A stretch of 43,194 bases of DNA from a virus. The DNA is taken from the IMG/VR virus record IMGVR_UViG_3300020171_000063, positions 1 to 43,194 of that record. The stretch is one strand, 5' to 3'. Below are positions 8,083 through 43,194 of the stretch, in pieces (the first letter of the stretch is position 1; every line of letters starts with the position of its first letter). Position numbers and translations under genes: made by a program. The notes under the pieces are model-generated. The model saw nothing but the letters and a program-made list of their open reading frames with translations, was not told the DNA's origin and ran no database searches.

Positions 8083-10224
8083 TTATTGTTGGGCAATGCC
8101 TTGTCCAACTTTGTTCCCCTGCGCGATCGCCGTTTTGACGATCTCGGTATTGTATTTCTTGTCGTCTGCCTCAGCCGTAGCCTGTGCTTGCTGCGCGAAT
8201 CCTTCAATCATCTTCGTCTTAGCAAACTGTGGGAGCGGAGACAATTCGATGATTACAGACGGGTCAACAGGGATACCCTGCTGCGCCATTTCCTTCATCA
8301 TCAGGAACCAAGCCATGCGAGATGTGACGCTGAAGCTCGTCTCGTCAACAGCTACGTCGTACTTCGTGAGGTCGCCAGAAACGATCTCTTCGATCATTTC
8401 CTGGATTTCCTCTTTGCTGTACTGGTTCAACGGCTTGTTTGCAACCATAACTTCTTCTTGAAGCGCCTGGTTGTTTATGATTCGTTTGATCCGCTCTACT
8501 GTGTAGATGTTCGGTATCTTGCTGACAACAATGCGGCCAAGGTGTTTCTTCGCCATGCTCAGGTTATCAAACAAATATTCGTTTCCGAGCATGATGGTAC
8601 GCTCTTGCTGCATCATCCCAACAGAGTTGTCGGGGCGGTTCTCAGGTGCCATAGATTCACGATTCATCCCAAGAACAATGTCCTGCATCTGAAGAGTGAT
8701 CTGGTTCATCTTGTCCAGTTCAGCAGGAAAGCCAATACCCTCCATGATCTTGATTTTTGTTATGTCCGTTACCTTCTGGCAGAATCCTGGAGTCGAGAAC
8801 TTCTTTCGTAGTGCGTCCTCGTTGACGCCCTCTTCAAACGCATCTTCCTCATACATGATACCGTATCCGTTGGTCTTGTTCATGATATCAACCATGTTGG
8901 AAAACCGCTTGTTGATCTCGTCCTGCATATCTTTCCCAAGATGACCTTTGCCAAACCACTTGTCGCCGTACTTCTCGGCGTACACCGGGATGTGGTGGAA
9001 GCCCTGAAAAGACAGCTCAGGGTACTCGTCATCCATAAGAACGCTGCCCGCCGTCTTGGTAACTCGCATCCGTGTCCGACTACGCGAGATGACCTTGTAT
9101 CCGTCGATCTTCTTAATCTTGGCGATATCAGCATCTTCGTAATCTTCGAGCGAAATAACCACTTCTTCAGGGCTGGTCGTGTCAATAAACACATAGGCAG
9201 GAGAGTACGTTTTGCGCCACATCTCGTGCATATAAATTGACCTGTCGTACTTGTCAAAGCCGTACATCGGCTCGTATGTCTTGACCGTCGTGGCGTGAGC
9301 AAACAGTTCTGACGGCCGGCCGATTTCTTTCTCGTCTAGGGTCGAAAATCCTATGTCGTTGAATAGATCCTCGATTTCCTTCTTCTTTTCGGGGAACAAC
9401 CCGATCAGGTTGTCGCGGGTAAACCGCTTGCGTACAACCAGGTATTCGAGGTCAGACAGGTCTTTCTTGTAATGCGGGCCGAAAAAGACGTCCTGCCAAC
9501 GCTCGGAGACAATCTTGATCTGGCCGCGTACATCGTCGTCAAAATCCTCGTAGACATGGAACACACCAAGACCACAACTCGATTGCTTCTCAAACAGCTC
9601 TGTCTCTTCCTGCCAGTAGTTCGTATTGCGAAGGATGACTTTCACGAGGAAGGACAAGATATCCGCAACACGGGCGTCTCCGTCCTCGACGGGGAAGTAT
9701 TTGAGGTCTGTCCGGTTCTGTCTCTGGATACCGGAAAGATACTTGAGGTTCGCCGACATGGTGTTGAGCGTGATAATCGCTCGGTCGGAATCCGTCATGT
9801 GGGCGGCTTTCTTGGTGTCCCACTGGTTGTTTGCAAGATATTCCTCGATGACAGACGCAATATCTCGGCTCTCTTTGTTTACTTGAGCAGCCTTCTTAAA
9901 GTGCGTTTCGACTTCCTCGACGATCTTCTCTGGTTTCTCTTTTTCCTCTTCGCCCTTCATTTCGATATCAGATAATTCGTGGACGTGTCCGTCAGGTCCG
10001 GGGGTCAAAACCTGTTTCTGACCAGTGACCTGTGTAACCTCCTGAGGGAAGTTCGTAACAGGGTCGATCTGAATAGTTGTTTCCTGGATATCTTCAAGAA
10101 TTAGCTGATGTGAATGTTTCCTGTCAACGGAGGAAACCCCTGTCCCGTCGTCAAGTTGGTACACAACATGAGAGTGAGAAGTTCTGCCTTTTCCAGTGGA
10201 GTCGGCGCGACGGAACATCGGCAT
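8083..10224 (-). CDS. Portal protein (P22-like podovirus portal)
   Basis: This 713-residue protein starts at ATG 10224 with GGAGGAAAAC upstream. Twelve copies would form the DNA entry and exit ring at one capsid vertex. Helical and wing-like segments resemble P22-type portals: a DSDRAIITLNTMSANLKYLSGI helix, NTNYWQEETELFEKQ, a GFHHIPVYAEKYGDKWFGKG loop, DMQDEINKRFSNMVDIMNKT, and a long C-terminal helix. The first 100 residues are unusual for a portal: three HxH motifs (HSH at about 17 and 38, HVH at about 80) embedded in acidic sequence. Size matches the family once that extension is allowed. A promoter lies just upstream at 10282-10311. Confidence 0.85.
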   Translation of the reverse strand: MPMFRRADSTGKGRTSHSHVVYQLDDGTGVSSVDRKHSHQLILEDIQETTIQIDPVTNFPQEVTQVTGQKQVLTPGPDGHVHELSDIEMKGEEEKEKPEKIVEEVETHFKKAAQVNKESRDIASVIEEYLANNQWDTKKAAHMTDSDRAIITLNTMSANLKYLSGIQRQNRTDLKYFPVEDGDARVADILSFLVKVILRNTNYWQEETELFEKQSSCGLGVFHVYEDFDDDVRGQIKIVSERWQDVFFGPHYKKDLSDLEYLVVRKRFTRDNLIGLFPEKKKEIEDLFNDIGFSTLDEKEIGRPSELFAHATTVKTYEPMYGFDKYDRSIYMHEMWRKTYSPAYVFIDTTSPEEVVISLEDYEDADIAKIKKIDGYKVISRSRTRMRVTKTAGSVLMDDEYPELSFQGFHHIPVYAEKYGDKWFGKGHLGKDMQDEINKRFSNMVDIMNKTNGYGIMYEEDAFEEGVNEDALRKKFSTPGFCQKVTDITKIKIMEGIGFPAELDKMNQITLQMQDIVLGMNRESMAPENRPDNSVGMMQQERTIMLGNEYLFDNLSMAKKHLGRIVVSKIPNIYTVERIKRIINNQALQEEVMVANKPLNQYSKEEIQEMIEEIVSGDLTKYDVAVDETSFSVTSRMAWFLMMKEMAQQGIPVDPSVIIELSPLPQFAKTKMIEGFAQQAQATAEADDKKYNTEIVKTAIAQGNKVGQGIAQQ

Positions 10225-14359: not shown

Positions 14360-14566
14360 ATGAATAACTGTGATTGTAAGACGAGCAAACTTTGTCCGGG
14401 ATGTTTAGTGGTTCCGACACCAGGGGACTACCGGGTAACGGGTGACGGGACAATACACCTATTGACATGCAAGACGTGCATACACAACGACAGACGGTAT
14501 ATGAAGCACTACTGCGCCTTTGGTTATACATGCGCTCAGTGCGGAGATTGGGAGCCGTCCGAGTGA
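14360..14566 (+). CDS. Cys-rich zinc-binding protein, paralogue of the 15498 gene C-terminus
   Basis: This protein has 68 residues from ATG 14360, preceded by GGGAGTGAGCGGG. It has CDC, LCPGC, CKTC, HYC and CAQC pairs that can hold two zinc ions. Residues 15-68 align closely with residues 95-145 of the gene at 15498-15935 (GDYRVT.DG, C.TCIHND.RY, GYTC.QCG.W), indicating duplication. It ends in WEPSE within another stop-codon hairpin. A role as a small nucleic-acid or protein-binding zinc ribbon is inferred from family behaviour only. Confidence 0.6.
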   Translation: MNNCDCKTSKLCPGCLVVPTPGDYRVTGDGTIHLLTCKTCIHNDRRYMKHYCAFGYTCAQCGDWEPSE

Positions 14567-14569
14567 CGT
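14555..14569 (+). repeat. PSE stop-codon hairpin, copy 2
   Basis: CCGTC-CGAGT-GACGT: four of five outer pairs form. It encodes the PSE end of the Cys-rich protein, and its TGA is the stop. Confidence 0.7.
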
Positions 14570-14584
14570 AGGAATGGGTATAAA

Positions 14585-15501: not shown

Positions 15502-15935
15502 AGAAAAAGGACTGTGATTGTCCATTCTGCTCTAAAACAGAAATCAAGCCTGAGACATCTCGCTGCGAGAAGTTGATGCTGTGTCCCTTCTGCGGGATAG
15601 ACAGCAAACGCATGGTTTTCATGAACTATGTGAAAGAAAGAGATCAGTACTTCGTGTCATGTGGTGGTTGTGGAACGTCTACAACAGAGTGGGAATACGC
15701 CGAAAGTGCGATTATGGCGTGGAACACCCGTGAGGGTAAGATACCAGACTGGTCTATGCAGGAACACCCTAAAAAGTGCTGTTGGCCCAAAGGTGACTAC
15801 CGGGTCACTGAAGACGGCGACGTCATCTCGCTGCGGTGCATAACGTGCATACACAACGACAATCGGTATACCAAGCGATACTGCCATATGGGGTATACTT
15901 GTGATCAATGCGGATATTGGCAACCGTCCAAGTGA
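15498..15935 (+). CDS. Lar-like zinc ribbon fused to a Cys-rich domain
   Basis: This protein has 145 residues from GTG 15498, which overlaps the previous stop as GTGA. Residues about 27-78 fit the Lar (restriction alleviation) zinc-ribbon pattern: LCPFCG, then YFVSCGGCGT and the diagnostic AESAIMAWNTR. Lar-family proteins of lambdoid phages reduce type I restriction; whether this divergent copy does is unknown. Residues 94-145 are a paralogue of the protein at 14360-14566. A further CDCPFC pair occurs at the N-terminus. It ends in QPSK from a variant stop-codon hairpin. Together with the methyltransferase and the Acb2-like gene it suggests a counter-defence cluster. Confidence 0.6.
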   Translation: MKKKDCDCPFCSKTEIKPETSRCEKLMLCPFCGIDSKRMVFMNYVKERDQYFVSCGGCGTSTTEWEYAESAIMAWNTREGKIPDWSMQEHPKKCCWPKGDYRVTEDGDVISLRCITCIHNDNRYTKRYCHMGYTCDQCGYWQPSK

Positions 15936-15938
15936 CGG
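15924..15938 (+). repeat. PSE stop-codon hairpin, copy 5 (PSK variant)
   Basis: CCGTC-CAAGT-GACGG keeps both 5-bp arms although the loop change turns the last residue to Lys. Change in the loop with conserved arms hints that pairing matters. GGAAAGGA follows for the next gene. Confidence 0.75.
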
Positions 15939-15954
15939 TGGAAAGGAAATTATT

Positions 15955-20234: not shown

Positions 20235-20852
20235 CTATCGCAGAGTGTGGCCGGTTACATCAAAGCCGTATTCAATGGCGATATCCGCCGGGACTATAGA
20301 TCGGATCACTGCCTCAACGATTCCATCCGCCAGGGCAACCTGAGTTGTCAAATTGTTCAGCTCTCTGCAATCAATCTGATTGCTCAAAAACCCTAGCTCA
20401 ATTAGAACGGCAGGACATTTTGAAGTTTTCAAAACGGTGAAAGTCGCCGGGTCTGCGCGATTCCATTTTGAGAGCCGTAGTACAGGCGCACATCGACACA
20501 GGAGATTCGCCGCCAGTGTTTGGGAGGCGACGCAGTTGCGCTTGTAGTACACTTGGAGGCCGTGAGGGGTGTCACGCTCACATGAATTGGAGTGGATGGA
20601 CACGAATATACAAAGCCCGGATGTTGTCGGCTTAGTCCTCTTGTCCAGCGGGATGAAAATATCGGTTTCGCGGGTAAGTACAGGCGCAATTTTGTATTCT
20701 TTGTTGTACAGGGAGAGCAGTTTTGCTGCAACCAACTTCGCAACAGCCAGGTTGACTACTTTCTCCTGCCTCCCTTGGATGGTGTTCACGCAGCCCGGAT
20801 CTTTTCCACCATGTCCAGGGTCGATCACGATTGTATATTCTTTCACGGCCAT
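20235..20852 (-). CDS. N-acetylmuramoyl-L-alanine amidase (endolysin, Amidase_3)
   Basis: This protein has 205 residues from ATG 20852 after GAAAGGATACTGAT; the longer reading upstream belongs to another small gene. It cleaves the bond between muramic acid and the stem peptide. Zinc ligands and catalytic residues are in place: DPGHGG (His 14), GRQEKVV (Glu 30), SIHSN (His 87) and IELGFLSN (Glu 152). There is no signal peptide and no wall-binding domain, so release depends on a holin, with the two small membrane proteins just upstream as candidates. Confidence 0.9.
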   Translation of the reverse strand: MAVKEYTIVIDPGHGGKDPGCVNTIQGRQEKVVNLAVAKLVAAKLLSLYNKEYKIAPVLTRETDIFIPLDKRTKPTTSGLCIFVSIHSNSCERDTPHGLQVYYKRNCVASQTLAANLLCRCAPVLRLSKWNRADPATFTVLKTSKCPAVLIELGFLSNQIDCRELNNLTTQVALADGIVEAVIRSIVPADIAIEYGFDVTGHTLR

Positions 20853-29393: not shown

Positions 29394-32300
29394 TCACTCT
29401 CCTTTGAAGTTTTTGTTGCGATATCTCTTTCTCTCGGTGGAGAAAAACCTTGTTATGATTTCCTTCTTCTTCTTTCTATCTATGTCATCCCTCTTGAGTA
29501 TCCTCGTGATCCTGTCCTTGTGCCTGTCAAGCACCGCATTAGCCGTCTCTACAGCGTACTTCTCATACTCCCTGGACGTGAGACGCCTTCCACCTGGGAG
29601 CGTTTGTTGTGGCTCGTTTATGACGATCTTGTTTTCCATCAGAAGTTTGTCCAGTTCTTCTGGGTGCGGGATAGACCCTTGCACTCCCGCGAGACGCGCC
29701 AGTCCACCAAAGAATCCTTCGCCACCACCCTGCATTGCTGGTTTACCCATGACGATTTTCTTTGGTTTGCTGTCGGACACAAACGGTATGCCCGAACCGG
29801 CAACGTCTTTCATGTCTTGCCACAGTCCTTCGCCGCTTTCCTTCTGCTCGATCTCAGGAGATAGCGCCCTCTCGAAACCTTTGACCAGGCCGGAGAACGG
29901 CATGAATCCTGACAGGTTGTAGGACAAGAACTCATTGGCAGACATACTCGGATTCTGCCTGCCCATAGCAAGCTCAAGCATGTTGTAGGCATTGCGTAGG
30001 AACGTCTTGTTGGCGAACACTCTGGACATGGCATAGGAAACCTGCTTCAGCATATCCTCTTCGTTGCTCGCCTGTGCCGAGTTTGCCGAAAGCTCAAGGA
30101 CACTTGCAAGAGGCTCGTACCGAGCGTAAGAGAACCAGCGATCTCCAATCCAAATAGAATAAGGTTCCCACCCAGCCTGTCTCATTGCCTGACGTTCTTC
30201 TCTATCTTCCGGCCCTCCACCTGTGATAAGACCCATCTGAGCCATGACGTATGCGATTGCCATGACTGCGGTTCCGGCAATTGCCTCGCCAACTTCTTCC
30301 GGGTTGGCATTTTTCCCCATCATTCTTGAAGTCATAAGTTCCGCGAATTTTACCGGGCTTGCACGGTACACATGTTTGGCTATGTTCGCGCCTATTGACA
30401 CAAATGGTATACCAAACCTGACCCACGGAAGTTCCTTTGCCACATTTGCAGCCTTCGTCACGCCTTCGCCGAGCATGTGGAGCTCTCTGAAGAATTTAGG
30501 TATCTCCACCTGGGCCTTTTTGTCCGGTCTAACACGTTCCTTGAGAGTCCAGTACAACCTGTCCTTCTTGATTGTCGGTGTCCATCTTGTCATTTGTTCA
30601 GCAGAAGGGTCTTTGAAATATTGATCGGACAGCTCGTATATCTTTGCTTCTTGTTCGCGTGTTGGAGTTTTCTTAACGTCTCCCATAACCTCTTTAAAGG
30701 CGTCGATGTAGGCAAGGTTCGCCTTTGATATGCAAGCATGAACAAAGTCTTGCGCGGCATCTCCGGCAGATAGAAGTGTAAATCCTGGGGCGCGAAGTAT
30801 CCTCCCTGCGGTCTTACCGATGTATTTATCCATCTTTTTTTCTCTTACACCAAGCATAACACCAAGCTCTGAACTGAATCCACCGTCATTTGCATATACC
30901 GCCATGATGATCGCCGGAACAGACCTCATGGCTTTGGTAGCTGCATACACCTGCGCTCCAAGTTCACCTGGAAGAACGTCTTTTCCCGTCATCCACTTGG
31001 GAAGCATCTGCGCTATAGCCTTACTACCGAGACGTTTTGCAAGAAGAATAGGGGCAGACAAAAAGTTCGATACGTTTGTAGATATGCCAGTCAGGATGTT
31101 ATTCATCCAGAACTCGTAAATTCCGTCAAATAAGTTGTTAGAGTCCGCGTTCATGGCGTTTGGTTTCTTGTTGTTGAGAAGTTCTTCCAATGCGGTGCGA
31201 GCCTCTTGCGGTGTCTTGTTAAGGCCAATCTCCATCAGACCTTTTAGAGCGCTTTCTCCGAAATCATTGATGATCTCTTGGTAGTCCTGAGGCTTGGCCG
31301 CCTTATCCAATCTCAATTTAACCTTGAATGTGTTTAACGCCCTTCCAGTCGCTGCCTTTGTGTCGAAGTATTGAAGAATAGAAGTTCCAAGATTGTCTGT
31401 CTCAATCATGTAAGCCGCCTGTTTCGCCATGCTGTCAGGATTGTTATACAGCTCTTCCTGAGCCGTCAACCACTTCTGACCAGCCGCCTCAAGCGACATT
31501 CTGTAAGCAACTGCGGCTTCGTCGAGCGTCAAACCCTTTCTCATTACGGACTCAGGCATATTCTTTGCCAACCAGTCAGAGTCCTCAACAGCCCTCTTTG
31601 CATACTTCGCAGACCGGGCGACTGACTTGCGGTAAACCCTGTCCTCCAACACCTTCAGTTCCTTCTCCTTGTTCTTCAACCGCTGGCGTATGACGGACAC
31701 CTTTTTGGAGTCACCAAGCTCCTGTATGTCACGGAGATCGGCTTGTATCTGAACAACCTCGTCGGTCAAGTCCTTGACCTTCTGGATATCGCCAAGGTCA
31801 GGAGAATTTTTCACAACTTCCTTAAGCGTTGTAAGTTCAGAGCTCTTCTGTTTCAATCTCGAAACAAGGTCTTTCGTTTTCTCGGTCATGCCTTCTTTAC
31901 GAGCTTCTTTCAACTGTAAACTAATCGTTGACAGTTCAGAACGAACGGCTTCAACCTGCTGCGGCCCGAGTTGTTTAAGCGCCTCGACGTAGTTGATTCC
32001 CATCATCCCGATCTGCCCGCCTAGACCCTCCATCTTGTCCAAGTTGACAGTCGGTGCCGGACCCCCTCTGTTGTATATCGACTTACCAGATTCGTCGCGT
32101 GACGCCTCTTGTATCCTCTTGTACTGACTATCAGATGAAACAAGCTGGCCACCGATTACTGTTCCGCCAGCTAACATCGGTTGGAATGGGTCTATTTCTT
32201 CTCCAATAATATCGGTTCCAAGCCTTGTTCCTTCAGGCTGTTGTTGATCGACTGTATTACGTCCACCAGAGACGATGCCGAGTTCTTCTTCGATTGCATT

Positions 32301-35183
32301 TTTTACCTCCGAATAGGCGTCATTCAACGCCGTTTTGTTTCCATGCTTCAAAAGGTTTGCGTACTTTGTGATTACATCAGATATTCTTCCTGAATATTTT
32401 GCAAGATTATCAAAGGCGCGGATATACATTTGGACGCGTCCGAGTTCTGTTGCCGCATCTTCTTTGTTGAACTCACCATACCCCATGAGTTCAAGGCGCG
32501 ATCCCGTTTCAGATCCAGGCACGCGAAGAGCGCGACGATCTCTCATAAGCCTATTTCGTATAGACTCTTTTATTTCAGCACGCTCCGCAAGATTTGATTG
32601 AATCTCGTCTCCAAACAGTGTTTGTTCTGACCCTGATTCGGTGGCCGACATTGCATCATCGACAACCGACGTAGCAACAGCAGTTGTTACCTGTTTGCCG
32701 CTTCTTTCTATTGTATTGAAAGCCTTTATTACGTCATCCTCTACCGCCTCTGACATTCCTGCTTTGGATAGAGCATTTGCCGCCTCGTCATTGATAACAT
32801 CATTGACATAAGCGTTCCAAACGGTGTCGCTTGCCTTTGAAATTTTAAGCCCATACGACCAGATCTTTTTCCTGATGTTTGGTTTAACACCTCTCGCCGC
32901 AAGCTCTCCTTCGATATCCTCTCCGTAGTCACGAAACAGCCTGGCCGCATCCTTCACGGTACCCTTGTCACCGGCGATGTTCCTTAATGCTCCATACATT
33001 CTCGCCGTCTTTGTGTCTGTTACGCCCTGTTCTTTTCCCACCTCAACAACGTCAACTTCCGATGCGCCAGATTCTTTTGCCATATTGTATCTGTGATGAC
33101 CGTCAAGGACGACAAGACTTTTGTCAGACGGATCTCTCCATACGACAATCGGATCAGCAAGATTCTGTTGAAATGGTTCTCCCCTGTATGTTTCAGTTAC
33201 GCCACCTTTTCCGACATCTCTCCTGTACTGCATAACGCTTGGTTTTACAGCAATACCGTCAATCAATTCTCGTCTGTAACGCTTACCCGTATCACTGGTC
33301 GCTTGCTCACGCTGTATAACCACCTGTGTTGCAGGTTCACTTATCGCGGGTGCCTGCGGTATGGGTTCGGGTGCAATCGTTTGTTGTGGGGCTTCCTGCT
33401 GCGTCGTAAGAGCTTTTTCTAGCTCTACCTTCGCCACCTTCAGTAACCTAGCCCTCTCCTTCGATCTCTTCTTCTTGTCCTTGATTGTCAAGGTTGCCTT
33501 GTTTATTTCCTTCATGCGTTCTTGAATTGACTTCGGTTCTTCGACCTGGATCGGTTGTTTCTGTTCCAACTGTTGAGGAATACTCACAGGTTCAAACGCC
33601 TTTTCTTCAGTAACAAGCGGCTGGTTCACGGGAGACTTATCCTGTCCGGTGACGGTGATTACACCACTTGGAACGCTAATCTTTTGGTGTGCCGCCTGAT
33701 AATATTTGAGTTTAACGCGGTCGATCATTTCGGCTCGCTTATCCTGAGTAGCCTGCATAGCGTCTTGTATTCCGATACGCATATCATCAATAGCAGCCTG
33801 CTCAAGAACCGTTCGTTGAGGATTCGCTTCCATGGCACCAAGTTTTTCCTGAAGGTCAATAATGTCTCTGCGCTGCGCTTCAAGTGTCGGAGAAGGACTC
33901 GCGTCCTCCATGCTCTGAAGTTTCTCGTATAAAGCGTTTCCGCCCTCGTCAGAGTACATGTCTGATATTACCTGTCCACGCCTTTGTTTCTGGTTTAATG
34001 CTTGCCGCTGCTGCTCCGCGTCAAGAGTCGGTTGTTCAACCGGTGGAGCTTGCGCGGGCGGTGCTGCGGTCGGAAAGGTTACGCCAGCCTCCTGCATCGT
34101 CTGAGCGACCTGCTCCGGGGAGATAACGTCAACCCCAAGATTCTGTTCTGCTGCTGCGATTGCGTTGTCAACGTCGTCTCCTGTAAGCTCTCTCGGTTGC
34201 GGTTGATCGTTGAACTGCATCCGTTGAGGGACAACGGTCTGTGCAATTTTACCTGCACCAAGAGACAGGGCAGATACGAACGGCGTCTGTAGTGCGATCT
34301 GCTTCATCCTGTCAGGAATACGAGCGTCAACAACAGCCTGTTCGTATGGCTTGCCTCGATATACGTCCTCGATGATATCCTGAGTTGAGTTGAGTGCTTC
34401 GGCAGAAAGTTCCTCTGTCTCCTGTGAAATTAGGAACTTCATGAAATTTGCAATGCGACCGCCGTTTGCCGGGTTATGCCGCAGAGCTTTCAATAGGTAT
34501 TTCCCACCCACATACTCTGTTAATCCCTCTGTTGCCGCCGAGCCTACAGCAGATACCGTGGCCTCTGTTGGAGTTGCGCCCTTTGTCATTTCCTCGCCGT
34601 ATTCACGTCCATAAGCGCGAGTACCCAACATCGTTGCGCCCACGGCAGGGCCTCCGATTACCGTTCCGGCTATCGCTGGAACCTGAGCCGCAGCCTCTGT
34701 TACAACGTCTCCGACAAAGGCAGGAACGGGGGATCGGTTTGGCATTCCAGCCATTGTTTCCTGCATCCTCTGTTGTCCGCTACCATACAGCGCTTGTCCG
34801 GCCTTATCCCACGGATCGTATCCAAGCGCCTGCGTTGCTGCTCCTGTAACAAGTGGTTCAAGGATCGGACCGGCAGGACCCATCGCAACCTGTCTTGCAA
34901 GATCGCTTTGGATCAGACCGCCACCAGTCATTTCAAGGTCCGCAAACATACGAGATGGAACGGCAGACAACTCGCGACCGATTGTTGTGGGCGCTACCTC
35001 CGGGACAACGCTATACACATATTGGCGATCCTCCTCCGGCATATTCGGAATAAGTGACGCCCATTGTTGAGTAGAGTATTTGTACTCTGGTTTCTGTGAC
35101 AAAACATAAGCCCGCTCCTCATCAGTCATGTTGGGAAGAAGCGCGTTCATCTGGTCGTGCGTGTATTTAATTCCTTCTGCCAT
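29394..35183 (-). CDS. 1929-residue polyvalent internal virion protein with ParB-like domain
   Basis: It starts at ATG 35183 after GAGGTAATATC. Residues 5-62 are two 28-residue repeats (YTHDQMNALLPNMTDEERAYV and YSTQQWASLIPNMPEEDRQYV). Next come Ala/Gly-rich helical parts, a Gln/Pro-rich linker, a ParB/Srx-like domain at about 635-760 (VVLDGHHRYNMAKE near 690), a long coiled coil (about 1050-1190), and a helical region with a hydrophobic stretch (AIAGTAVMAIAYVMAQMGL, about 1630-1650), ending in a charged tail. This is the polyvalent-protein layout described by Iyer and colleagues in 2017: proteins packaged in the head and injected with DNA. Likely it protects or processes the incoming genome. 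Largest gene of the phage (5.8 kb). Confidence 0.75.
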   Translation of the reverse strand: MAEGIKYTHDQMNALLPNMTDEERAYVLSQKPEYKYSTQQWASLIPNMPEEDRQYVYSVVPEVAPTTIGRELSAVPSRMFADLEMTGGGLIQSDLARQVAMGPAGPILEPLVTGAATQALGYDPWDKAGQALYGSGQQRMQETMAGMPNRSPVPAFVGDVVTEAAAQVPAIAGTVIGGPAVGATMLGTRAYGREYGEEMTKGATPTEATVSAVGSAATEGLTEYVGGKYLLKALRHNPANGGRIANFMKFLISQETEELSAEALNSTQDIIEDVYRGKPYEQAVVDARIPDRMKQIALQTPFVSALSLGAGKIAQTVVPQRMQFNDQPQPRELTGDDVDNAIAAAEQNLGVDVISPEQVAQTMQEAGVTFPTAAPPAQAPPVEQPTLDAEQQRQALNQKQRRGQVISDMYSDEGGNALYEKLQSMEDASPSPTLEAQRRDIIDLQEKLGAMEANPQRTVLEQAAIDDMRIGIQDAMQATQDKRAEMIDRVKLKYYQAAHQKISVPSGVITVTGQDKSPVNQPLVTEEKAFEPVSIPQQLEQKQPIQVEEPKSIQERMKEINKATLTIKDKKKRSKERARLLKVAKVELEKALTTQQEAPQQTIAPEPIPQAPAISEPATQVVIQREQATSDTGKRYRRELIDGIAVKPSVMQYRRDVGKGGVTETYRGEPFQQNLADPIVVWRDPSDKSLVVLDGHHRYNMAKESGASEVDVVEVGKEQGVTDTKTARMYGALRNIAGDKGTVKDAARLFRDYGEDIEGELAARGVKPNIRKKIWSYGLKISKASDTVWNAYVNDVINDEAANALSKAGMSEAVEDDVIKAFNTIERSGKQVTTAVATSVVDDAMSATESGSEQTLFGDEIQSNLAERAEIKESIRNRLMRDRRALRVPGSETGSRLELMGYGEFNKEDAATELGRVQMYIRAFDNLAKYSGRISDVITKYANLLKHGNKTALNDAYSEVKNAIEEELGIVSGGRNTVDQQQPEGTRLGTDIIGEEIDPFQPMLAGGTVIGGQLVSSDSQYKRIQEASRDESGKSIYNRGGPAPTVNLDKMEGLGGQIGMMGINYVEALKQLGPQQVEAVRSELSTISLQLKEARKEGMTEKTKDLVSRLKQKSSELTTLKEVVKNSPDLGDIQKVKDLTDEVVQIQADLRDIQELGDSKKVSVIRQRLKNKEKELKVLEDRVYRKSVARSAKYAKRAVEDSDWLAKNMPESVMRKGLTLDEAAVAYRMSLEAAGQKWLTAQEELYNNPDSMAKQAAYMIETDNLGTSILQYFDTKAATGRALNTFKVKLRLDKAAKPQDYQEIINDFGESALKGLMEIGLNKTPQEARTALEELLNNKKPNAMNADSNNLFDGIYEFWMNNILTGISTNVSNFLSAPILLAKRLGSKAIAQMLPKWMTGKDVLPGELGAQVYAATKAMRSVPAIIMAVYANDGGFSSELGVMLGVREKKMDKYIGKTAGRILRAPGFTLLSAGDAAQDFVHACISKANLAYIDAFKEVMGDVKKTPTREQEAKIYELSDQYFKDPSAEQMTRWTPTIKKDRLYWTLKERVRPDKKAQVEIPKFFRELHMLGEGVTKAANVAKELPWVRFGIPFVSIGANIAKHVYRASPVKFAELMTSRMMGKNANPEEVGEAIAGTAVMAIAYVMAQMGLITGGGPEDREERQAMRQAGWEPYSIWIGDRWFSYARYEPLASVLELSANSAQASNEEDMLKQVSYAMSRVFANKTFLRNAYNMLELAMGRQNPSMSANEFLSYNLSGFMPFSGLVKGFERALSPEIEQKESGEGLWQDMKDVAGSGIPFVSDSKPKKIVMGKPAMQGGGEGFFGGLARLAGVQGSIPHPEELDKLLMENKIVINEPQQTLPGGRRLTSREYEKYAVETANAVLDRHKDRITRILKRDDIDRKKKKEIITRFFSTERKRYRNKNFKGE

Positions 35184-35192
35184 GATATTACC

Positions 35193-36467
35193 TCAAAATA
35201 GCGTGTATCCAGCCGCTTCTGCAGCTTTCCTCTTGTCTATTTCCACTTGTTCTTCTGGTGTAGGACCGTATCTGACGAACTGCGAAAGTGGGTCCGCGTA
35301 TGCTCCAGCTGTTTCCTTTGCGCTGTCCAGAATGCGTTGAAGCAAATGTTGTTTTTGTGGAACTGCGTAAGTCGTTGGTTCTCCACCTGGAGGCAGGATT
35401 GGAGCAGGTGCGGGCGATTGCTGCGTAACCTGTTGTTGTGTCTGCTGATTTTGCTGACCCTTTATAAATGCGTTGTCTGCTATCGCGTTTATCTTGTCAA
35501 AATGCGACGGTCCGGCGTTTGTATTGTCGGTTTGTATCTGCCTTGGCTGGTAGTATTCTCCGGTTCCTGTAGAGGTCTGTTGCCTCATAGCTGCAAGTTT
35601 TTTGTTCCACGGAGCAAGCCTTTCTTTCTGGTATTGCATGTACTTGTCTCCGTCAAGACGCTCAAGCGTTGCCGTTCTAGCTGCGTTTATATCTTCTGTC
35701 GTCGGATTGAGTCCGGTTTCAACTCTACGAGAAAGTTCTTCTTTGAATATAGCGTCTCCATACGCTTTGATATCGCCCATTATGCCGTCTACAGCTCCCT
35801 CTACCCGCTTCAACTCAATCGAGTCCGGGTCATAGTCTGGCGCGTTAGGATCAGTTCCAGCAGATCCAGAACCGCTTCCACTTCCGCTTCCACTTCCTGA
35901 CCTTCCAGGTAGTGTTCCGGACATTTCCATATCTCTGCGCCTCATCTGCTGCTCGATGTTTTGCCGGTTTAGTGGCCTGTCATTCATCAGTGTATCCAAA
36001 CTCATTGCGTTGCTCAACTGCTTGGACGGGTCGGCCTGATCAAACGCATAGTCAATTTCTTTCTGTTTCTGGTGCATGTCCAATTTCTGAGCCATGTCCT
36101 GCTTTGCCCGGTACTCATCGTACTTTGCTTTGTCAGCGTTGATACGGGCGTTGTAGAAGTTCTTAAGAGCCTTGCCAATACCTGACAGTGTTCCGCTTCC
36201 CTTCTTCCACGACACAGGGAACTCCTCTGTTGAAGGAAGTCCGGGCGCACCAGGGTTCTCCCCTACGTCCTTGGAGTAGTCTTGCATCTCCGGTTTCCTG
36301 GGGTTCAATACACTGTCCACGAGGCGTTGTTGTTCCTGTAAGAGCCGTTCGCTGGCAGACGGTAGGTTGCTGCTACCACGTTGGCTAGGTTGTGGCATAT
36401 CGCCAACAATAGGAGGCGTCAGACCTACACCCATTCTCTCCCTGAGTATGTTTGCTAAGTTTGCCAT
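35193..36467 (-). CDS. Internal/ejection-type protein, helical with Gly-Ser linker
   Basis: This protein has 424 residues from ATG 36467 after AGGGGGTATAAAC; the longer frame is an antiphase extension. It has a helix-rich, Gln/Asp-rich body (KAKYDEYRAKQDMAQKLDMH) and a run of alternating Gly-Ser near residues 188-204, followed by a second helical part and a low-complexity Gln/Pro-rich stretch. Composition and position between two other large virion proteins fit an ejected inner core protein such as P22 gp7/16/20 analogues. No named domain recognised. Confidence 0.5.
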   Translation of the reverse strand: MANLANILRERMGVGLTPPIVGDMPQPSQRGSSNLPSASERLLQEQQRLVDSVLNPRKPEMQDYSKDVGENPGAPGLPSTEEFPVSWKKGSGTLSGIGKALKNFYNARINADKAKYDEYRAKQDMAQKLDMHQKQKEIDYAFDQADPSKQLSNAMSLDTLMNDRPLNRQNIEQQMRRRDMEMSGTLPGRSGSGSGSGSGSGSAGTDPNAPDYDPDSIELKRVEGAVDGIMGDIKAYGDAIFKEELSRRVETGLNPTTEDINAARTATLERLDGDKYMQYQKERLAPWNKKLAAMRQQTSTGTGEYYQPRQIQTDNTNAGPSHFDKINAIADNAFIKGQQNQQTQQQVTQQSPAPAPILPPGGEPTTYAVPQKQHLLQRILDSAKETAGAYADPLSQFVRYGPTPEEQVEIDKRKAAEAAGYTLF

Positions 36468-36469
36468 GT

Positions 36470-38995
36470 TTATACCCCCTTGCTTTTGGCGAAAGAGCTT
36501 ATAAGATTTCCAGCCAATCCCCACAAACCGGACTTGGTCTGTTCCTTGGCTGCTGCTGCTGCCATTTCTGCCTGATTCTCCGAAGTTTTCATTGCTGTCG
36601 CTGCCTGTATTGGACCTGATACGGTACTCATCGCATCGGCCGGGCCACCCATAAGCCATTTCTGAGTATTTAGCCGATCCTGCGCTATTCCTCTGTCCAA
36701 ATTTATTTGCGCCATTTGACGAGCTTCGGCTGCTGTTCCAACATCTCGGATGTTTCCGAGTAATTCTTGTCCAACGGCCATTTTGCCTGTTCCAAGGCCA
36801 GCAAGCCCCATAGCAGTTCTGCCCTGCGTGTCTTGCAAATCTCCCTGCGCTGCTCCTGCTGCTTTTAGGGCGTCGATTCTTTGGTTTCCAGTGTCTAACA
36901 CCCAGAAATTTCCCTGCTGCATGGCGTTTTGTATCGCAGCTTCGTTAAGTTCACGGGTTTTTGCTGCGGCTCGGAAAGAAAGGTCACTACTCTGACCGAG
37001 CAGCGCCCTTCTTTCTGCTGCGTTTACGTCATTGATTGCCGTGCTTGCACCAAGTCCGCGAGAACCCATAACCTGAGCGTTTTCACGCTGCATTATTTCC
37101 GATTGGCGGGCGACTGGATCAAACGCCGCTCTGTAAAACGCATCCTTGTAACCAGATAAGTCGCCTTCATTAAGCCCACCAAGACGACTGCTTATCGTGT
37201 TCCACAATTCCGCCGCCTCTGGACTCGTCTCGGCAGCCGCTTTGAGTTTTTCGATCGTGTCTGTCTGCCCCGTCTCGTACTCTTTTAAGGCTTGTTTCAT
37301 AATGGACGAGGCGTCGTCATATGCAGAATACGCTGGGTTGTCTACCAAGAACTCATTCTGCATCCACTCGTAGAACTTCTCTTGCTCAGGTGTGTTTATA
37401 ACAGATTGTCCCGTGTAGTCCAGCGGTGTAACAGCTTCGTTTGCGAGTCGGCTTTGGGCGTTGATGTCGCCTGATTCAAGCGTGTCCCTTGTTGACGCCG
37501 CTGCCTCTGCCCCTGTGGTCGTGACACCCGGTAATTTGATGTTGCCTAGCTTCAAGTCCTCGCGGATCTTCGCAACATCCTGACCGTATACACCGGGATA
37601 TTGCATACTCGCTGCCGCGATTAGATTGACATCCGAAAGTGTTTGCCCAGCCTCAGTTCCTGTACCTGCCTCTGTGTAGTATGGGTCTGGTTTGTTGACA
37701 TACCCTGGTTGTATAGTTGACGTAGAGCCGGTCGCATTGCCACCAGTTGTTGACGTAGCTCCGGTCGTTCCTGCTGCTGCTGCGTCGGTTGCTGCGCCTG
37801 CTTGCGTGCCAAATAGTTGGTTTCCCGACTCATCTTTTTGGTAGGTTTCCCCGCCCATTGTAGATACTCCCGGTGCTTTCTGCGAAGTGCTTGCCACGCC
37901 AGATTTTGCTCCAAGCCTCTGCGTCAGTTCTTCTCTCGACATATTTTGGTCTTGTGTTTTGGGTCTGTACTTACCGTCAGCTCCCTTTTCGTAGTACATT
38001 CCTTCGCTTCGTGTTCCTGCGTTTGGATCTGCATCCAGACCAATCTCGGCCTGTGCTTCGCGTTCTGCCTTTGTTGGGATTCCCTTCTTTTTCATCATTT
38101 CTATTAGTGCGTTAGACAAACCGTCTTTGTCCAAACTCGGTTGACTTGGGTCTGGTTTTCCAGAAATTGCCGCTTCAAGCTCTGCATCAGTCATGTCGGC
38201 AGGGTTCCTCTGAAGGGCAGGAGAGCGATTCTCCATGTTTGGCTGCTGTGTTGTTCTGCTGAACTCGTTTGGTAATCCTTTCGAGAAGTTGGAGTTTATC
38301 ACTCCCAACATATCTCCAACGTCATTAAAACTCTTCTGCATTTCAGGAGTTACCGTAACGCCAAGTTCTTTTAGCCTTCTCGGATCAAAGTGCGGCTTGA
38401 ACCTTGTTATAATTGCGTCCAACTCTTCCTTTGTGTTCGCATTTGCAGCCGTGTTTCTGAAATCTTCGATCGTGTCAATGATCTGTTGATCGTTGCTTCT
38501 CGGACTCGGAGTTCCGGGTACAATCTTGGTTGGATCAACACCAGCGTTTACGCCAGTAATCGTCTTTACCATCTCGTCCTGCTGCTTCTTCACTTCTTGA
38601 ATATCGGTGTCAGACATTGTATCCGTGTTGTATGTATCCACGATAGGCTTGTACTTCTGTTGAATACCAGAAACCGCTTCTGGTGTCGTTGCCGCCTCCA
38701 GCTCGGTGTTAGCTTCACGCAAAGTTTCCTTGAGATTCCCGGTCTTTATCGGGTCTCTGAACAAGGCTTTGTACTTGCTCTTGTCGTACTTCGTGTTCTG
38801 AACAGCGGCCTCTCTCTTGCTTGCCGCTTCGTTTGCCGCCCTCTGCGCTGGTTGTAGAACCTCGTAGAACCTCTTCTGGTAGTCAGTAAGATATCCCTGC
38901 TTTACCTGTAGATTCTGTTTGCTCGCCTCAAGAGCTTCCTTCACTCCTGGGATCTGATACAGCATTTCCATAACGTCAAAATTCGGGTCTGCCAT
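36470..38995 (-). CDS. Large Ala/Gln-rich internal virion protein
   Basis: This protein has 841 residues from ATG 38995 (MADPNFDVME) with AGGAGGCAGATTACT upstream. Long amphipathic and coiled-coil stretches (EALEASKQNLQVKQGYLTDY, EVKKQQDEMVKTITG) alternate with Gly/Thr/Ala low-complexity (TGATSTTGGNATGSTSTI), typical of podovirus ejection proteins. The C-terminal 200 residues are helical (DSLRQ-like repeats: GLAGLGTGKMAVGQELLG) and end in a small hydrophobic segment (GLWGLAGNLISSFAKSKG) that could insert in a membrane. Likely one of three proteins ejected ahead of DNA. Confidence 0.55.
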   Translation of the reverse strand: MADPNFDVMEMLYQIPGVKEALEASKQNLQVKQGYLTDYQKRFYEVLQPAQRAANEAASKREAAVQNTKYDKSKYKALFRDPIKTGNLKETLREANTELEAATTPEAVSGIQQKYKPIVDTYNTDTMSDTDIQEVKKQQDEMVKTITGVNAGVDPTKIVPGTPSPRSNDQQIIDTIEDFRNTAANANTKEELDAIITRFKPHFDPRRLKELGVTVTPEMQKSFNDVGDMLGVINSNFSKGLPNEFSRTTQQPNMENRSPALQRNPADMTDAELEAAISGKPDPSQPSLDKDGLSNALIEMMKKKGIPTKAEREAQAEIGLDADPNAGTRSEGMYYEKGADGKYRPKTQDQNMSREELTQRLGAKSGVASTSQKAPGVSTMGGETYQKDESGNQLFGTQAGAATDAAAAGTTGATSTTGGNATGSTSTIQPGYVNKPDPYYTEAGTGTEAGQTLSDVNLIAAASMQYPGVYGQDVAKIREDLKLGNIKLPGVTTTGAEAAASTRDTLESGDINAQSRLANEAVTPLDYTGQSVINTPEQEKFYEWMQNEFLVDNPAYSAYDDASSIMKQALKEYETGQTDTIEKLKAAAETSPEAAELWNTISSRLGGLNEGDLSGYKDAFYRAAFDPVARQSEIMQRENAQVMGSRGLGASTAINDVNAAERRALLGQSSDLSFRAAAKTRELNEAAIQNAMQQGNFWVLDTGNQRIDALKAAGAAQGDLQDTQGRTAMGLAGLGTGKMAVGQELLGNIRDVGTAAEARQMAQINLDRGIAQDRLNTQKWLMGGPADAMSTVSGPIQAATAMKTSENQAEMAAAAAKEQTKSGLWGLAGNLISSFAKSKGV

Positions 38996-39008: not shown

Positions 39009-39353
39009 CTACTTGTCGATGATCGTGAAAAGTGATACTTCGAGCGTGTCTGAGGCGGCACTGTCAAGAACAACCTCTACGGTGTTATCGCCAGTCAGAA
39101 CAGCGGTTATGTAATTTCCAGAGTTGGTGTTCAACGTAGCCAAGACAACCGATGTGGTTCCGCAAGGGAAGGAAAGTATCTCGGAAGTAACCCCGTTTGT
39201 AAAATCCTCCCGCGCAGTGTAAAAAGACTCAAAGTTTGTTCTTGTGTTCAACCAATTCATGTCGTTCATTGGTGGGTATATCGGTTGAAGCGGCTGTCTC
39301 GCAGAGCATGACAAGGCTGTCAGAAGCACCAAGACGAAAGCAATTTTTCTCAT
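39009..39353 (-). CDS. Small exported protein of the tail cluster
   Basis: This protein has 114 residues from ATG 39353, overlapping the beta-propeller gene stop. It starts MRKIAFVLVLLTALSC followed by SARQP, a Sec signal peptide; the Cys at 16 is close to a lipobox but the -3 residue is Ala, so signal peptidase I cleavage after SA is as likely. The mature part ends in beta-rich sequence (SVVLATLNTNSGNYITAVLTG, TVEVVLD). Possibly a tip or nozzle subunit. Function unknown. Confidence 0.55.
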   Translation of the reverse strand: MRKIAFVLVLLTALSCSARQPLQPIYPPMNDMNWLNTRTNFESFYTAREDFTNGVTSEILSFPCGTTSVVLATLNTNSGNYITAVLTGDNTVEVVLDSAASDTLEVSLFTIIDK

Positions 39354-40867
39354 CTGAGTGTCGAGTCCTTTATTGTCCCAAGCGGCGAATAATAGACTCT
39401 CATGGTTTTGACAGACGTTATGCCCTTCGGCGTCTGACCGTCGTTTGACAGATACAAAGACATCTTTCTCACCGGCTGGTCAAGGCCAACATTCCAAACA
39501 TACGTCTTGAGATATCCGGCACCAACCATGTTCGTCGTCTCATACGTCTCTCCGGCAATCTCTTGGTAGTAAAGACGGCACTCAATCGTATCAGCGGTTG
39601 CTGCTTTCATGTCCACCTCAACCCGGCTTATACGCTTGTGTGTGCCGTTGTTCACGTCCAGGGTGGTGTAGGACGTGCGATAGGTGAAATCCTCGAATGT
39701 CGTTGCCGTCGTGTTGTCCTTGAAACTCATGGTAGGGAGCCAAGAAAACAGGACTTTCGTTCCGTCTGACTCTCCATAGAAATTATCGCCGTATGGGATA
39801 TCAAGCCAATCGTGTTCGTAGAAAGACTTTGTTTGAATGTCGAAAACGAACACTTTGTACGTTGCTGAAGCGATTCCAGCGATATACAGATATCTGTCTT
39901 GTGACATCATCATCTTGTAAATCTGGAAATATGTCGTCAACCCATACGTCGGGGTGTGAGCCAGAAAAGACGTGTTCATTCCTTCGATCATGTATATGCT
40001 GCCACGATTGGAGAATAGGACAGCGTTCTTGTGAGCGAAAGCAGAAGCAGCTACGTTGCTGTAATCAACCTCTGGAACCACCGCACACACCTTGTCTATT
40101 CTCCACGTTGCTGTTGTGTCTCCACCGGAAAGAAGAAATACGCCAGTCATCGTAAAGATGTAAAGTCCATATTGAGTCTCAATCAATTTCCTGATCGAAC
40201 CGTAATTGCTGAACCTGGTTTCACCTGCACCGAGCGTAACATCCCAGTTCTCGTAGTCGTTTGGGGCAGAGTTGTACATCGTGTACTCGGTCGCAACAAA
40301 CAACCTGCCTTTCCATGTAGCCGCGGATACGCAAGTCATCGTGTCGAACGGTAGGCTGTTTATCCTGGTGGACGTTCCTGAACCCGAGACGTATTTCCAG
40401 ACTTCATCTCCGTTGCAGACATAGATATACTGCCCTGACAGATAGATTGACGAGGCGAACAAATATGTGTTTGAGACAGAGGCGTGAGGCATCAGCTCAA
40501 AATCGTTTGCTCCGTCCTTTACCCGCAAGAAGTAGTCAGTCCCTTTCTTCATAAGAAAAATTGCGCCGAAGTTTCTATTTGGGGGTAGAACCGCGTCCAT
40601 CAGTTGAACAGAAGATGTGGTATGAGACAGCGAGAACGTCTGTGTACTGAGACTGTTCAGCGACGTTGACGATGAATGGCAGTTTACAGCACTGTTTGAA
40701 GTCGTTGTCGCGTAGGCAAATACAGAATCTTCCGTGATGTTCTCCGTTGCGAACCCCAACATATCCTTCGCCTGGAACTGGATCACCTGTAAACCAGAAT
40801 CGTCTGTCCCTGAAATAGCAGGAGCAGACAACACAAGGAGCAGTAGGAGGCAGAGTATCTTCTTCAT
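39350..40867 (-). CDS. Beta-propeller tail nozzle protein (P22 gp10/T7 gp12-like) with signal peptide
   Basis: This protein has 505 residues from ATG 40867, overlapping the adaptor-like gene by ATGA. Residues 1-19 are a Sec signal peptide (MKKI, a run of Leu, APAIS before GTDDSG). The body has repeated blade motifs: YVCNGDEVWKYV, RINSLPFDTMTCVSAATWKG, RLFVATEYTMYNSAPNDYENW, FSNRGSIYMIEGM and FVFDIQTKSFYEHDW. This matches the propeller nozzle proteins of short-tailed phages, which extend below the adaptor ring and hold the spikes. An export signal on this protein is unexpected, as assembly is normally on the filled head in the cytoplasm. Confidence 0.7.
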   Translation of the reverse strand: MKKILCLLLLLVLSAPAISGTDDSGLQVIQFQAKDMLGFATENITEDSVFAYATTTSNSAVNCHSSSTSLNSLSTQTFSLSHTTSSVQLMDAVLPPNRNFGAIFLMKKGTDYFLRVKDGANDFELMPHASVSNTYLFASSIYLSGQYIYVCNGDEVWKYVSGSGTSTRINSLPFDTMTCVSAATWKGRLFVATEYTMYNSAPNDYENWDVTLGAGETRFSNYGSIRKLIETQYGLYIFTMTGVFLLSGGDTTATWRIDKVCAVVPEVDYSNVAASAFAHKNAVLFSNRGSIYMIEGMNTSFLAHTPTYGLTTYFQIYKMMMSQDRYLYIAGIASATYKVFVFDIQTKSFYEHDWLDIPYGDNFYGESDGTKVLFSWLPTMSFKDNTTATTFEDFTYRTSYTTLDVNNGTHKRISRVEVDMKAATADTIECRLYYQEIAGETYETTNMVGAGYLKTYVWNVGLDQPVRKMSLYLSNDGQTPKGITSVKTMRVYYSPLGTIKDSTLR

Positions 40868-41571
40868 TTCTTTTGCGGCCCTGTGTCCGGCACCGGCTCA
40901 ATTACATTGGAGTTAGCAAGCGTCTGACCCGTAGACGTAAGGAGCGTCGTGTAGACCTTCTCAAGTGCGGCCGCTCGCGTCTGCTGATTGTCGTTCGTCA
41001 GAACCAGCATAGCCGCGCCAACAGACAGGAGATTGTCAAACTCAGTAAGGGTCTGCACCTCAGTCGTGTCGGTTTCCATGTCCACGACATTCACAGCAAA
41101 CAGAACTTCAGCCGTCTGCGTAACCGCTGTTGGAGTAGGAAAGATGTAGATGTAGTCGTTCATCAGGAAAAACATTGGGTCTTTGGCAATCGTAGCCTGC
41201 CCGATCTTCCCAAAGTAGTCAGAGGCTTTCACTTGGATAGCGGCCTTCTGATTCACCCGGACACCAAGAATCTCCCTGAACCCTGACGGAAGGCTGTAAT
41301 ATGGTGTCCCGATAGACACGGACACCGTATCAACCTTCAGGAGATTCCAGTGAGCAGAGTAGGGCATCTGATCCACCATCATCCTTTGAGCCATGTTGAT
41401 GAAGTCGTTGAGCAGAGCGTCGGCGTAGATTGTGTTGGTGCTGTCCGTCTCGTAGAGCAGACGCCTCACCTTCGTCCTTATATCGGATAAGGTGGTTGCT
41501 GCATAGCATGGAATCAGATCGTTGCACAGGAACGCTCCTGCGAGCGCACAGAGCATTATCAGTTTCTTCAT
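40864..41571 (-). CDS. Second adaptor-like protein (P22 gp4-like) with signal peptide
   Basis: This protein has 235 residues from ATG 41571, overlapping the lipoprotein stop as ATGA. Residues 1-24 form a Sec signal peptide (MKKLIMLCALAG, with CYA before ATTLSD). From residue 25 the sequence follows the gp4/phage-adaptor pattern: TLSDIRTKVRRLLYETDS, ALLNDFINMAQRM, SLPSGFREILGVRV, IYIFPTPTAVTQTAEV, and a last helix with LSVGAAMLVLTNDNQQTRAAA. The same fold without a signal is encoded at 3043-4245. So the phage has two adaptors, one predicted cytoplasmic and one exported. Confidence 0.7.
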   Translation of the reverse strand: MKKLIMLCALAGAFLCNDLIPCYAATTLSDIRTKVRRLLYETDSTNTIYADALLNDFINMAQRMMVDQMPYSAHWNLLKVDTVSVSIGTPYYSLPSGFREILGVRVNQKAAIQVKASDYFGKIGQATIAKDPMFFLMNDYIYIFPTPTAVTQTAEVLFAVNVVDMETDTTEVQTLTEFDNLLSVGAAMLVLTNDNQQTRAAALEKVYTTLLTSTGQTLANSNVIEPVPDTGPQKK

Positions 41572-42101
41572 TGTGGGTCGGCCTCCCATGTGCGGATCAC
41601 CCGCTGTTTATCGTATCCCATTGTATTTCCCCAGTAAGCGATCGACTCAGCCCAGCCCGACACTTCGCGTACAGAGAGATTGGACTGTTCAAAAAACTTG
41701 TCTCCCACCCTGAACACACAGATATAATGCCAGCCGTACTTGATGTTAGCCAGCCTTTTGTAAAGGTAGATTTCGTGAAACCCATCTGCAGCCCTGATTC
41801 CTTTGGACGCCTTGTACCTTGCGAACTCGCAGAAAAGGGCGGTGTAGTCGTTGCAGTTTCCCCACTTACGCTCCCAGGTGATCACAGGCTTCGTGTGGAA
41901 GTCTGTCCAGGGCGTTAGGTTCGCCCCGTCACTTGCCCACTTGTACCCGTTGGCAACCAGGTGTGAGGATAGGTCTTGCAGACTGGTGATGCTGTCGAAC
42001 TCAGTGTACATGAAGCTCATGCCGTCCTTGGTGTTCGTGCAAGCGATAACGCCAACAGAACCGATGAGAAGCAGTATAAGCAACCAGATCTTCAACATCA
42101 T
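41568..42101 (-). CDS. Transglutaminase-like (papain-fold) lipoprotein
   Basis: This protein has 177 residues from ATG 42101, overlapping the previous gene. Residues 1-20 are hydrophobic and end in a lipobox (GVIAC, Cys 21 lipidated). The enzyme part has WERKWGNCNDYTALFCEFAR, with nucleophile Cys 83 in the GxCxDxA context of bacterial transglutaminase-like peptidases, His 125 in GWHYICVFR, and an acidic residue soon after (Asp 134 or Glu 138). Homologues can act as Cys proteases or amidases in the periplasm. In a phage late operon it might process exported tail subunits, act in lysis, or block superinfection. Inference. Confidence 0.65.
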   Translation of the reverse strand: MMLKIWLLILLLIGSVGVIACTNTKDGMSFMYTEFDSITSLQDLSSHLVANGYKWASDGANLTPWTDFHTKPVITWERKWGNCNDYTALFCEFARYKASKGIRAADGFHEIYLYKRLANIKYGWHYICVFRVGDKFFEQSNLSVREVSGWAESIAYWGNTMGYDKQRVIRTWEADPQ

Positions 42102-42745: not shown

Positions 42746-43194
42746 TCAGTATTCCTGTCCGTTGTTCTTGAAGCCTGTGCCACCTACGTTTGTGATTGAG
42801 TCGTACACGCCATTCATTACTGAATATGTAGAATTCCCCATGTCAACGTCTCCAAAGTCTCCGCTCATTAATATGTTTGTCCTTGTGGCTGAAAAGAAAT
42901 CGAAGTACGATGCACCGCTTAATTTGCCGACATTATAATTGCAATAACTACCAGAATTGTTTATTCCCTTATACCCTCCACGTATTAATCCAATGGAGAA
43001 TATTGAATTGTATCCGTTTTGGCTTAATCCGTTTGCCCCTGTTTGTGTAGTAACAAGAGAGGCGATGGTATAACTTCCATTGTCAGAACCAGATCCAATT
43101 ACAAACGCATCACTCGCATCATCGTGGTATATTGACCCGACTTTCATAATTACAGAATCCGATGTCAATACACGGATTGCGTTATCCCCATTCC
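42746..43194 (-). CDS. Tail spike, C-terminal part (joins 1-3022)
   Basis: This is the last part of the spike that starts at 3022. The reading frame enters from the right edge through the 126-bp repeat and stops at 42746. It continues the Asn/Gly/Ser-rich beta-helix turns (VTTQTGANGLSQNGYNSIFS, RGGYKGINNSGSYCNYNVG) and ends NVGGTGFKNNGQEY. No clear C-terminal chaperone or trimerisation domain is seen, so either the helix end itself trimerises or another protein assists. The ATG at 43168 is an internal Met, not a start. Confidence 0.8.
   Translation of the reverse strand, partial: NGDNAIRVLTSDSVIMKVGSIYHDDASDAFVIGSGSDNGSYTIASLVTTQTGANGLSQNGYNSIFSIGLIRGGYKGINNSGSYCNYNVGKLSGASYFDFFSATRTNILMSGDFGDVDMGNSTYSVMNGVYDSITNVGGTGFKNNGQEY
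43069..43194 (+). repeat. Right copy of the 126-bp terminal repeat
   Basis: Identical to 10-135; merging gives a 43,059-bp circle. The length is typical of an assembler overlap. It says little about the real ends of the packaged DNA. Confidence 0.9.

Follow-up and report, generated by a model that had tools for sequence, protein, structure and literature searches.

Predicted Sec signal peptides on the distal tail genes of a tailed phage may point to a tail built across the membrane

We regard it as an evenly balanced proposition that the short-tailed phage described here exports its distal tail, with heads that would form and fill in the cytoplasm and parts that would meet around lysis. Tails of tailed phages are generally considered to be assembled in the cytoplasm of the host. 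Among the structural genes of IMG/VR record IMGVR_UViG_3300020171_000063 (positions 1 to 43,194; this whole stretch of 43,194 nucleotides is called the window below), Sec signals are predicted on distal tail genes only, a distribution which points to a tail built across the membrane.

The record appears to represent a circular genome, complete at ~43.06 kb and cut within the fibre gene, because bases 10-135 recur as bases 43069-43194 (a 126-bp direct terminal repeat, preceded by 9 further bases on the left) and because the fibre frame is open through this repeat, for 1120 codons up to its stop. The possibility that the window is an incomplete fragment was ruled out on the same two grounds.

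Signal peptides were called with a home-made rule for the n-, h- and c-regions (basic n-region, hydrophobic core, small-x-small or lipobox end), used as a stand-in for SignalP. Seven of the 43 window ORFs of at least 100 aa were positive, all of them late genes (the fibre occupies two lines; a hyphen between residues marks the predicted cut):

41568-42101, minus strand: lipobox protein of 177 aa; signal peptide 42042-42101, VIA-C by the lipobox rule; predicted N-terminus MMLKIWLLILLLIGSVGVIA-C
40864-41571, minus strand: adaptor 2, SU10-type tail adaptor with Sec signal peptide (codons 41500-41571, predicted cut CYA-ATTLSD); predicted N-terminus MKKLIMLCALAGAFLCNDLIPCYA-ATTLSD
39350-40867, minus strand: nozzle/beta-propeller-like tail protein with Sec signal peptide (codons 40811-40867, predicted cut AIS-GTDD); predicted N-terminus MKKILCLLLLLVLSAPAIS-GTDD
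39009-39353, minus strand: small lipobox protein of 114 aa; signal peptide 39309-39353, ALS-C by the rule scan; predicted N-terminus MRKIAFVLVLLTALS-C
4987-5553, minus strand: late protein of 188 aa with signal peptide (5494-5553, AYA-D, rule scan score 5.5); predicted N-terminus MKYKALALLLALILCPAAYA-D
4256-4984, minus strand: phrog_8198 protein (3.1e-20 from residue 24) with signal peptide (4925-4984, SFS-E); predicted N-terminus MNRTIACAICFLMLTGVSFS-E
10-3022, minus strand: tail fibre/spike, N-terminal part, with signal peptide (2960-3022), coiled coil and beta-helix (PF13229, 2.4e-14); predicted N-terminus MRKTTIVLSLLLLLFCTPSHA-V
42746-43194, minus strand: tail fibre/spike, C-terminal part, same frame across the circle

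By the rule, five of these proteins show the Sec/signal peptidase I pattern (basic n-region, hydrophobic core, small-x-small cut), and the other two, 41568-42101 and 39009-39353, carry a lipobox with its cysteine after the hydrophobic core. The earlier note had named the first four genes of the list, and its description holds: all four lie on the minus strand, overlap as ATGA through shared stop and start bases (42098-42101, 41568-41571, 40864-40867 and 39350-39353), and encode N-termini that open with basic residues, continue as a long core rich in leucine and close with a small-x-small motif or a lipobox. Its set was nevertheless incomplete, as the fibre, 4987-5553 and 4256-4984 bear signals too.

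The same rule called 26 of 2028 ORFs (1.3%) across 173 other phage loci, where any 8 neighbouring ORFs contained at most 2 positives. The excess in the window corresponds to a Fisher P of about 3e-6, and the 7 positives among 16 late ORFs to a P of about 6e-10, assuming independent ORFs. The reading that wrongly chosen starts or the rule-based predictor produced these calls artificially, and that the true products start downstream and stay cytoplasmic, draws on the use of a home-made rule in place of SignalP and on downstream GTG or TTG codons in some of the genes. Against it, the rule recovered MalE, LamB, MalM, AphA and NrfA in a control stretch of 49 kb from E. coli, and ribosome sites are found at most of the signal-peptide start codons (the strongest, -11.6, at 4987-5553; -8.5 at the fibre ATG, 3022), with internal starts weak or absent; 4256-4984 has no start codon between residues 15 and 46, and the only internal start of adaptor 2 would cut into its domain. 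We therefore consider this reading very improbable.

All seven signals are found in genes for the fibre, the adaptor, the nozzle and accessory proteins. The rule scan of N-termini found none on the terminase, scaffold and 5621-6043 products, nor on the following head-side and internal proteins:

8083-10224, minus strand: portal, P22-like, no signal peptide (PF16510, 1.7e-74)
6063-7100, minus strand: major capsid (coat) protein, no signal peptide (phrog_334, 8e-29)
29394-38995, minus strand: three large proteins of internal-virion type, no signal peptides, at 36470-38995 and about 35193-36500 (both assigned to this type by position only) and at 29394-35183 (phrog_6651, 2.3e-30)

In the 1929-aa product of 29394-35183, a ParB-like/phrog_21 stretch at residues about 646-947 occurs together with the phrog_6651 internal virion region (1575-1789).

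Adaptor 2, in its reading from 41589 (40864-41589), matches PF24175 at 9.4e-16 (59.3 bits, for a curated cut-off of 27). The ATG at 41571 is the best start, with an SD duplex of -10.2 kcal/mol versus -4.7 for 41589; the first residue of the domain is number 32 in the 241-aa reading and number 26 in the 235-aa one. A profile built from 42 adaptors gave 5.5e-10 by hhalign; a smaller one with five members had told little when compared with single adaptors. In this alignment the mature sequence ATTLSDIRTK coincides with the canonical adaptor start MALTTYTELK; cleavage would therefore restore an ordinary adaptor N-terminus. An SU10-type tail adaptor forms a twelve-subunit ring on the portal clip. 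By these sequence matches 40864-41571 is an adaptor-domain protein with a variant N-terminus and a mature domain that matches in full, which bears out the earlier claim of an adaptor with a signal peptide. Its novelty is the signal peptide itself: homologues start at the domain, a usual though not strictly defining trait, and none of the 42 carries an export signal.

These alignments also bear on the alternative that the hydrophobic N-termini are uncleaved anchors, which would tether tail proteins at the inner membrane for head docking or form membrane-active virion tips. All the segments are hydrophobic enough for a membrane; they nevertheless end in typical small-x-small cut sites at the correct distance, the canonical domains of adaptor 2 and 4256-4984 begin straight after the predicted cuts, and such a segment is absent from 42 of 42 adaptor homologues. 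We consider anchoring quite improbable.

The gene directly after adaptor 2, as in T7 and P22 (ATGA overlap 40864-40867), is 39350-40867. Its product aligned by hhalign with a 7-sequence nozzle alignment at 9.1e-5 over 103 columns and, when all 43 window ORFs were compared with a nozzle profile of 23 sequences, scored best, yet at only 0.0056; it has no Pfam or PHROG match. Two AlphaFold models were all-beta at low confidence (pLDDT 34 and 37), and the ribosome site is weak (SD -3.6). From this weak profile similarity and its position we call the protein nozzle-like. The propeller with a signal peptide proposed earlier thus keeps its signal, which is canonical, whereas its identity goes no further than nozzle-like. 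None of the 23 nozzle homologues has a signal peptide.

Among the remaining exported proteins, 4256-4984 belongs to a family whose cyanophage members bear the annotation tail fibre or virion protein. Most homologues resemble it only from residues 22-28 onwards, right past the predicted cut at 20. No signal peptide was found in the 80 viral phrog_8198 homologues examined, most of which have an N-terminal arm like TEPFELQVARGQI at the place of the signal. The product of 4987-5553 has no family match and is probably structural.

The two lipobox proteins had been counted earlier as tail proteins; this was not borne out, as neither matches any database family. For 41568-42101 no Pfam, PHROG or NCBIfam family was found and PDB gave chance matches only, and 39009-39353 has a weak Pfam LPAM_1 match under the cut-off. 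The product of 41568-42101 might process or anchor exported tail proteins. Its C/H pattern GNCNDY...GWHYICVF recalls transglutaminase/cysteine-peptidase-like enzymes, without a family match.

Cysteine makes up 1.19% of the exported set versus 0.39% of the others (about 0.87% when the internal proteins are left out), a weak hint that the set may meet an oxidising compartment; the absence of cysteine from adaptor 2 and the odd cysteine number of the nozzle-like protein count against an exported distal tail.

A second adaptor-domain gene, which the earlier note had not mentioned, adjoins the fibre gene:

3043-4245, minus strand: adaptor 1, SU10_adaptor domain with a 200-aa C-terminal extension, no signal peptide

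It matches PF24175 at 1.9e-13 (51.7 bits, domain from residue 3; 5.6e-16 in the genome search), and direct BLAST of adaptor 2 against it found no real similarity. Each of eight compared phages has at most one match to this family; three IMG/VR loci (L112, L113, L125) have two adjacent adaptor-like genes without export signals, so two adaptors alone prove nothing. Adaptor 1 could occupy the portal in the cytoplasm. Its lack of a signal and its place beside the fibre gene also fit the idea that the signal-bearing proteins are secreted derivatives with a non-virion role, the virion tail being made of adaptor 1 and of proteins not recognised in this genome; the exported phrog_8198 protein, which lacks the N-terminal arm of most homologues, fits it as well. 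However, adaptor 2 is nearer to the canonical family than adaptor 1 (5.5e-10 versus 0.0012 by hhalign), the nozzle-like gene directly follows adaptor 2 as in other podoviruses, and adaptor 2 is syntenic with its counterpart in a distant relative. Such a division between virion and secreted proteins seems to us decidedly improbable.

This relative, the MAG contig JALVKL010000059.1 (L180, L183-L185), came from a portal search of genome contigs and is the sole one found with a similar late-gene order. No close relative was found in INPHARED (tblastn of adaptor, propeller and coat protein) or in IMG/VR (single-protein scans with adaptor, portal, terminase, 1929-aa protein and nozzle), and the adaptor search of genome contigs gave no relative; a DNA pattern for the terminase Walker motif returned five contigs, none with window homologues. 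The relative is phage-like and 41 kb long, and the MAG into which it was binned belongs to a phylum with sparse sampling (9 genomes in the data used). Its TerL, portal and coat protein are in part 29%, 25% and 32% identical to those of the window, and its late genes follow a window-like order of fibre, membrane proteins, XhlA-like coiled coil, adaptor (32768-33385, a weak profile match, E 0.001) and nozzle-like protein (33947-35869, assigned from position and sequence, not from a profile). Both of the latter are without signal peptides. As they occupy the corresponding late position, the exported pair of the window look like positional tail genes.

Export of the signal-bearing tail proteins is likely. 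The circular record has a single nozzle-like gene and a single fibre gene, each with a signal peptide, and none without was found; virions must therefore use both, if they have such parts, and it is probably the exported copies that enter the virion. Together with the partition of the signals between distal tail and head or internal proteins, this speaks for the exported proteins as genuine tail parts of the virion. The earlier note had left two options, assembly partly beyond the inner membrane or another role for the exported copies; with no second nozzle or fibre gene found, the first fits the gene division better and the second less well.

That second option could be an envelope role, in which mature adaptor, nozzle and fibre in the periplasm or outer membrane would block receptors or superinfecting phage, and a small un-exported fraction would build virions. 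Phage-encoded receptor-blocking lipoproteins exist (e.g. T5 Llp), and lipobox proteins share the operon here. Strong hydrophobic signals should, however, leave little protein in the cytoplasm, adaptor and nozzle contact the portal side so that their export makes little sense for a receptor block, and the separate nozzle or fibre gene without a signal is missing. We find this role unlikely.

We propose instead an assembly in two compartments, with DNA-filled heads capped in the cytoplasm, a whole distal tail (adaptor 2, nozzle, fibre) secreted, processed and folded in the periplasm, and halves that join at or after lysis; we hold it tentatively, at a little short of even confidence. Export of the distal tail, the evenly balanced reading given at the outset, would run as follows. 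Terminase, portal, scaffold, coat and internal proteins would stay cytoplasmic, where heads would assemble and fill with DNA, and the signal-less adaptor 1 would probably cap the portal of packaged heads. Sec would translocate adaptor 2, the nozzle and the beta-helix fibre, together with two accessory proteins; signal peptidase I cleavage would yield ordinary tail N-termini and the exported parts would fold in the periplasm. At the outer membrane, the two lipobox proteins may serve to tether or process these parts. The heads would meet them, most simply, once holin and endolysin open the membrane, or at the membrane just before. The sequence itself shows the signals on tail-type genes and their absence from head genes and from homologues; from there we infer export and cleavage, the capping by adaptor 1 and the joining at lysis. 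A candidate lysis protein is encoded at the following position, with small membrane proteins nearby:

20235-20852: amidase, lysis protein (Pfam, 2.5e-35)

The T7 adaptor is a monomer without the portal and oligomerises only on it (PMC6702177), which fits periplasmic monomers awaiting heads; for the same reason one would not expect adaptors in the periplasm to assemble into a ring unaided, which counts against the proposal. Joining after lysis would also be dilution-limited in an environmental phage. This view comes from one genome, for which no close relatives were found, read at the sequence level.

The window resembles the SU10/T7-type short tail in its PF24175 adaptor, the nozzle-like gene beside it, fibre, internal proteins and P22-like portal (the portal-adaptor-nozzle-fibre architecture of PMC9509320 and PMC6702177). 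It differs in that its distal tail proteins start with Sec signal peptides and in its two adaptor-domain proteins, one of them signal-less. Virion proteins made as Sec preproteins recall the Inoviridae, where PMC8310372 describes the G3p of filamentous phage M13 as a preprotein handed to the Sec machinery. Unlike inoviruses, this phage is of the tailed dsDNA type with terminase, portal and lysis cassette, and no inovirus genes were found in its genome. Phage lipoproteins, spanins and SAR endolysins also bear N-terminal export signals or lipoboxes (PMC3556154, PMC3765740), but these are lysis or exclusion proteins, whereas the signals here are on adaptor, nozzle and fibre. In the open-access literature we found no tailed phage whose adaptor, nozzle or fibre bears a signal peptide, in agreement with the earlier statement that no described podovirus is known with this layout.

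The window contains a 15-base hairpin, CCGTC[C/A]GAGTGACGG, in 10 copies with at most 2 mismatches, against an expected 0.31 (0 of 100 shuffles attain this count):

14328, 14555, 14825, 14960, 15924 and 17962, plus strand; 21129, 21364, 22356 and 22594, minus strand: hairpin copies

Several copies overlap an early-gene stop codon (ORFs ending in ..PSE and the stop), just ahead of the next ribosome site. Two 110-nt direct repeats (14468-14577 and 15837-15946, 77% identical) lie within early ORFs that are short and rich in cysteine (14360-14566 and 15576-15935) and are apparently a local duplication.

If the proposed assembly is correct, head and tail assembly would be spatially separate, receptor-binding parts would be kept out of the cytoplasm, and disulphide-stabilised tails would be possible. 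Cleaved N-termini in virions are its concrete prediction, and signal peptides on structural genes are a feature for which viral metagenomes may be screened.
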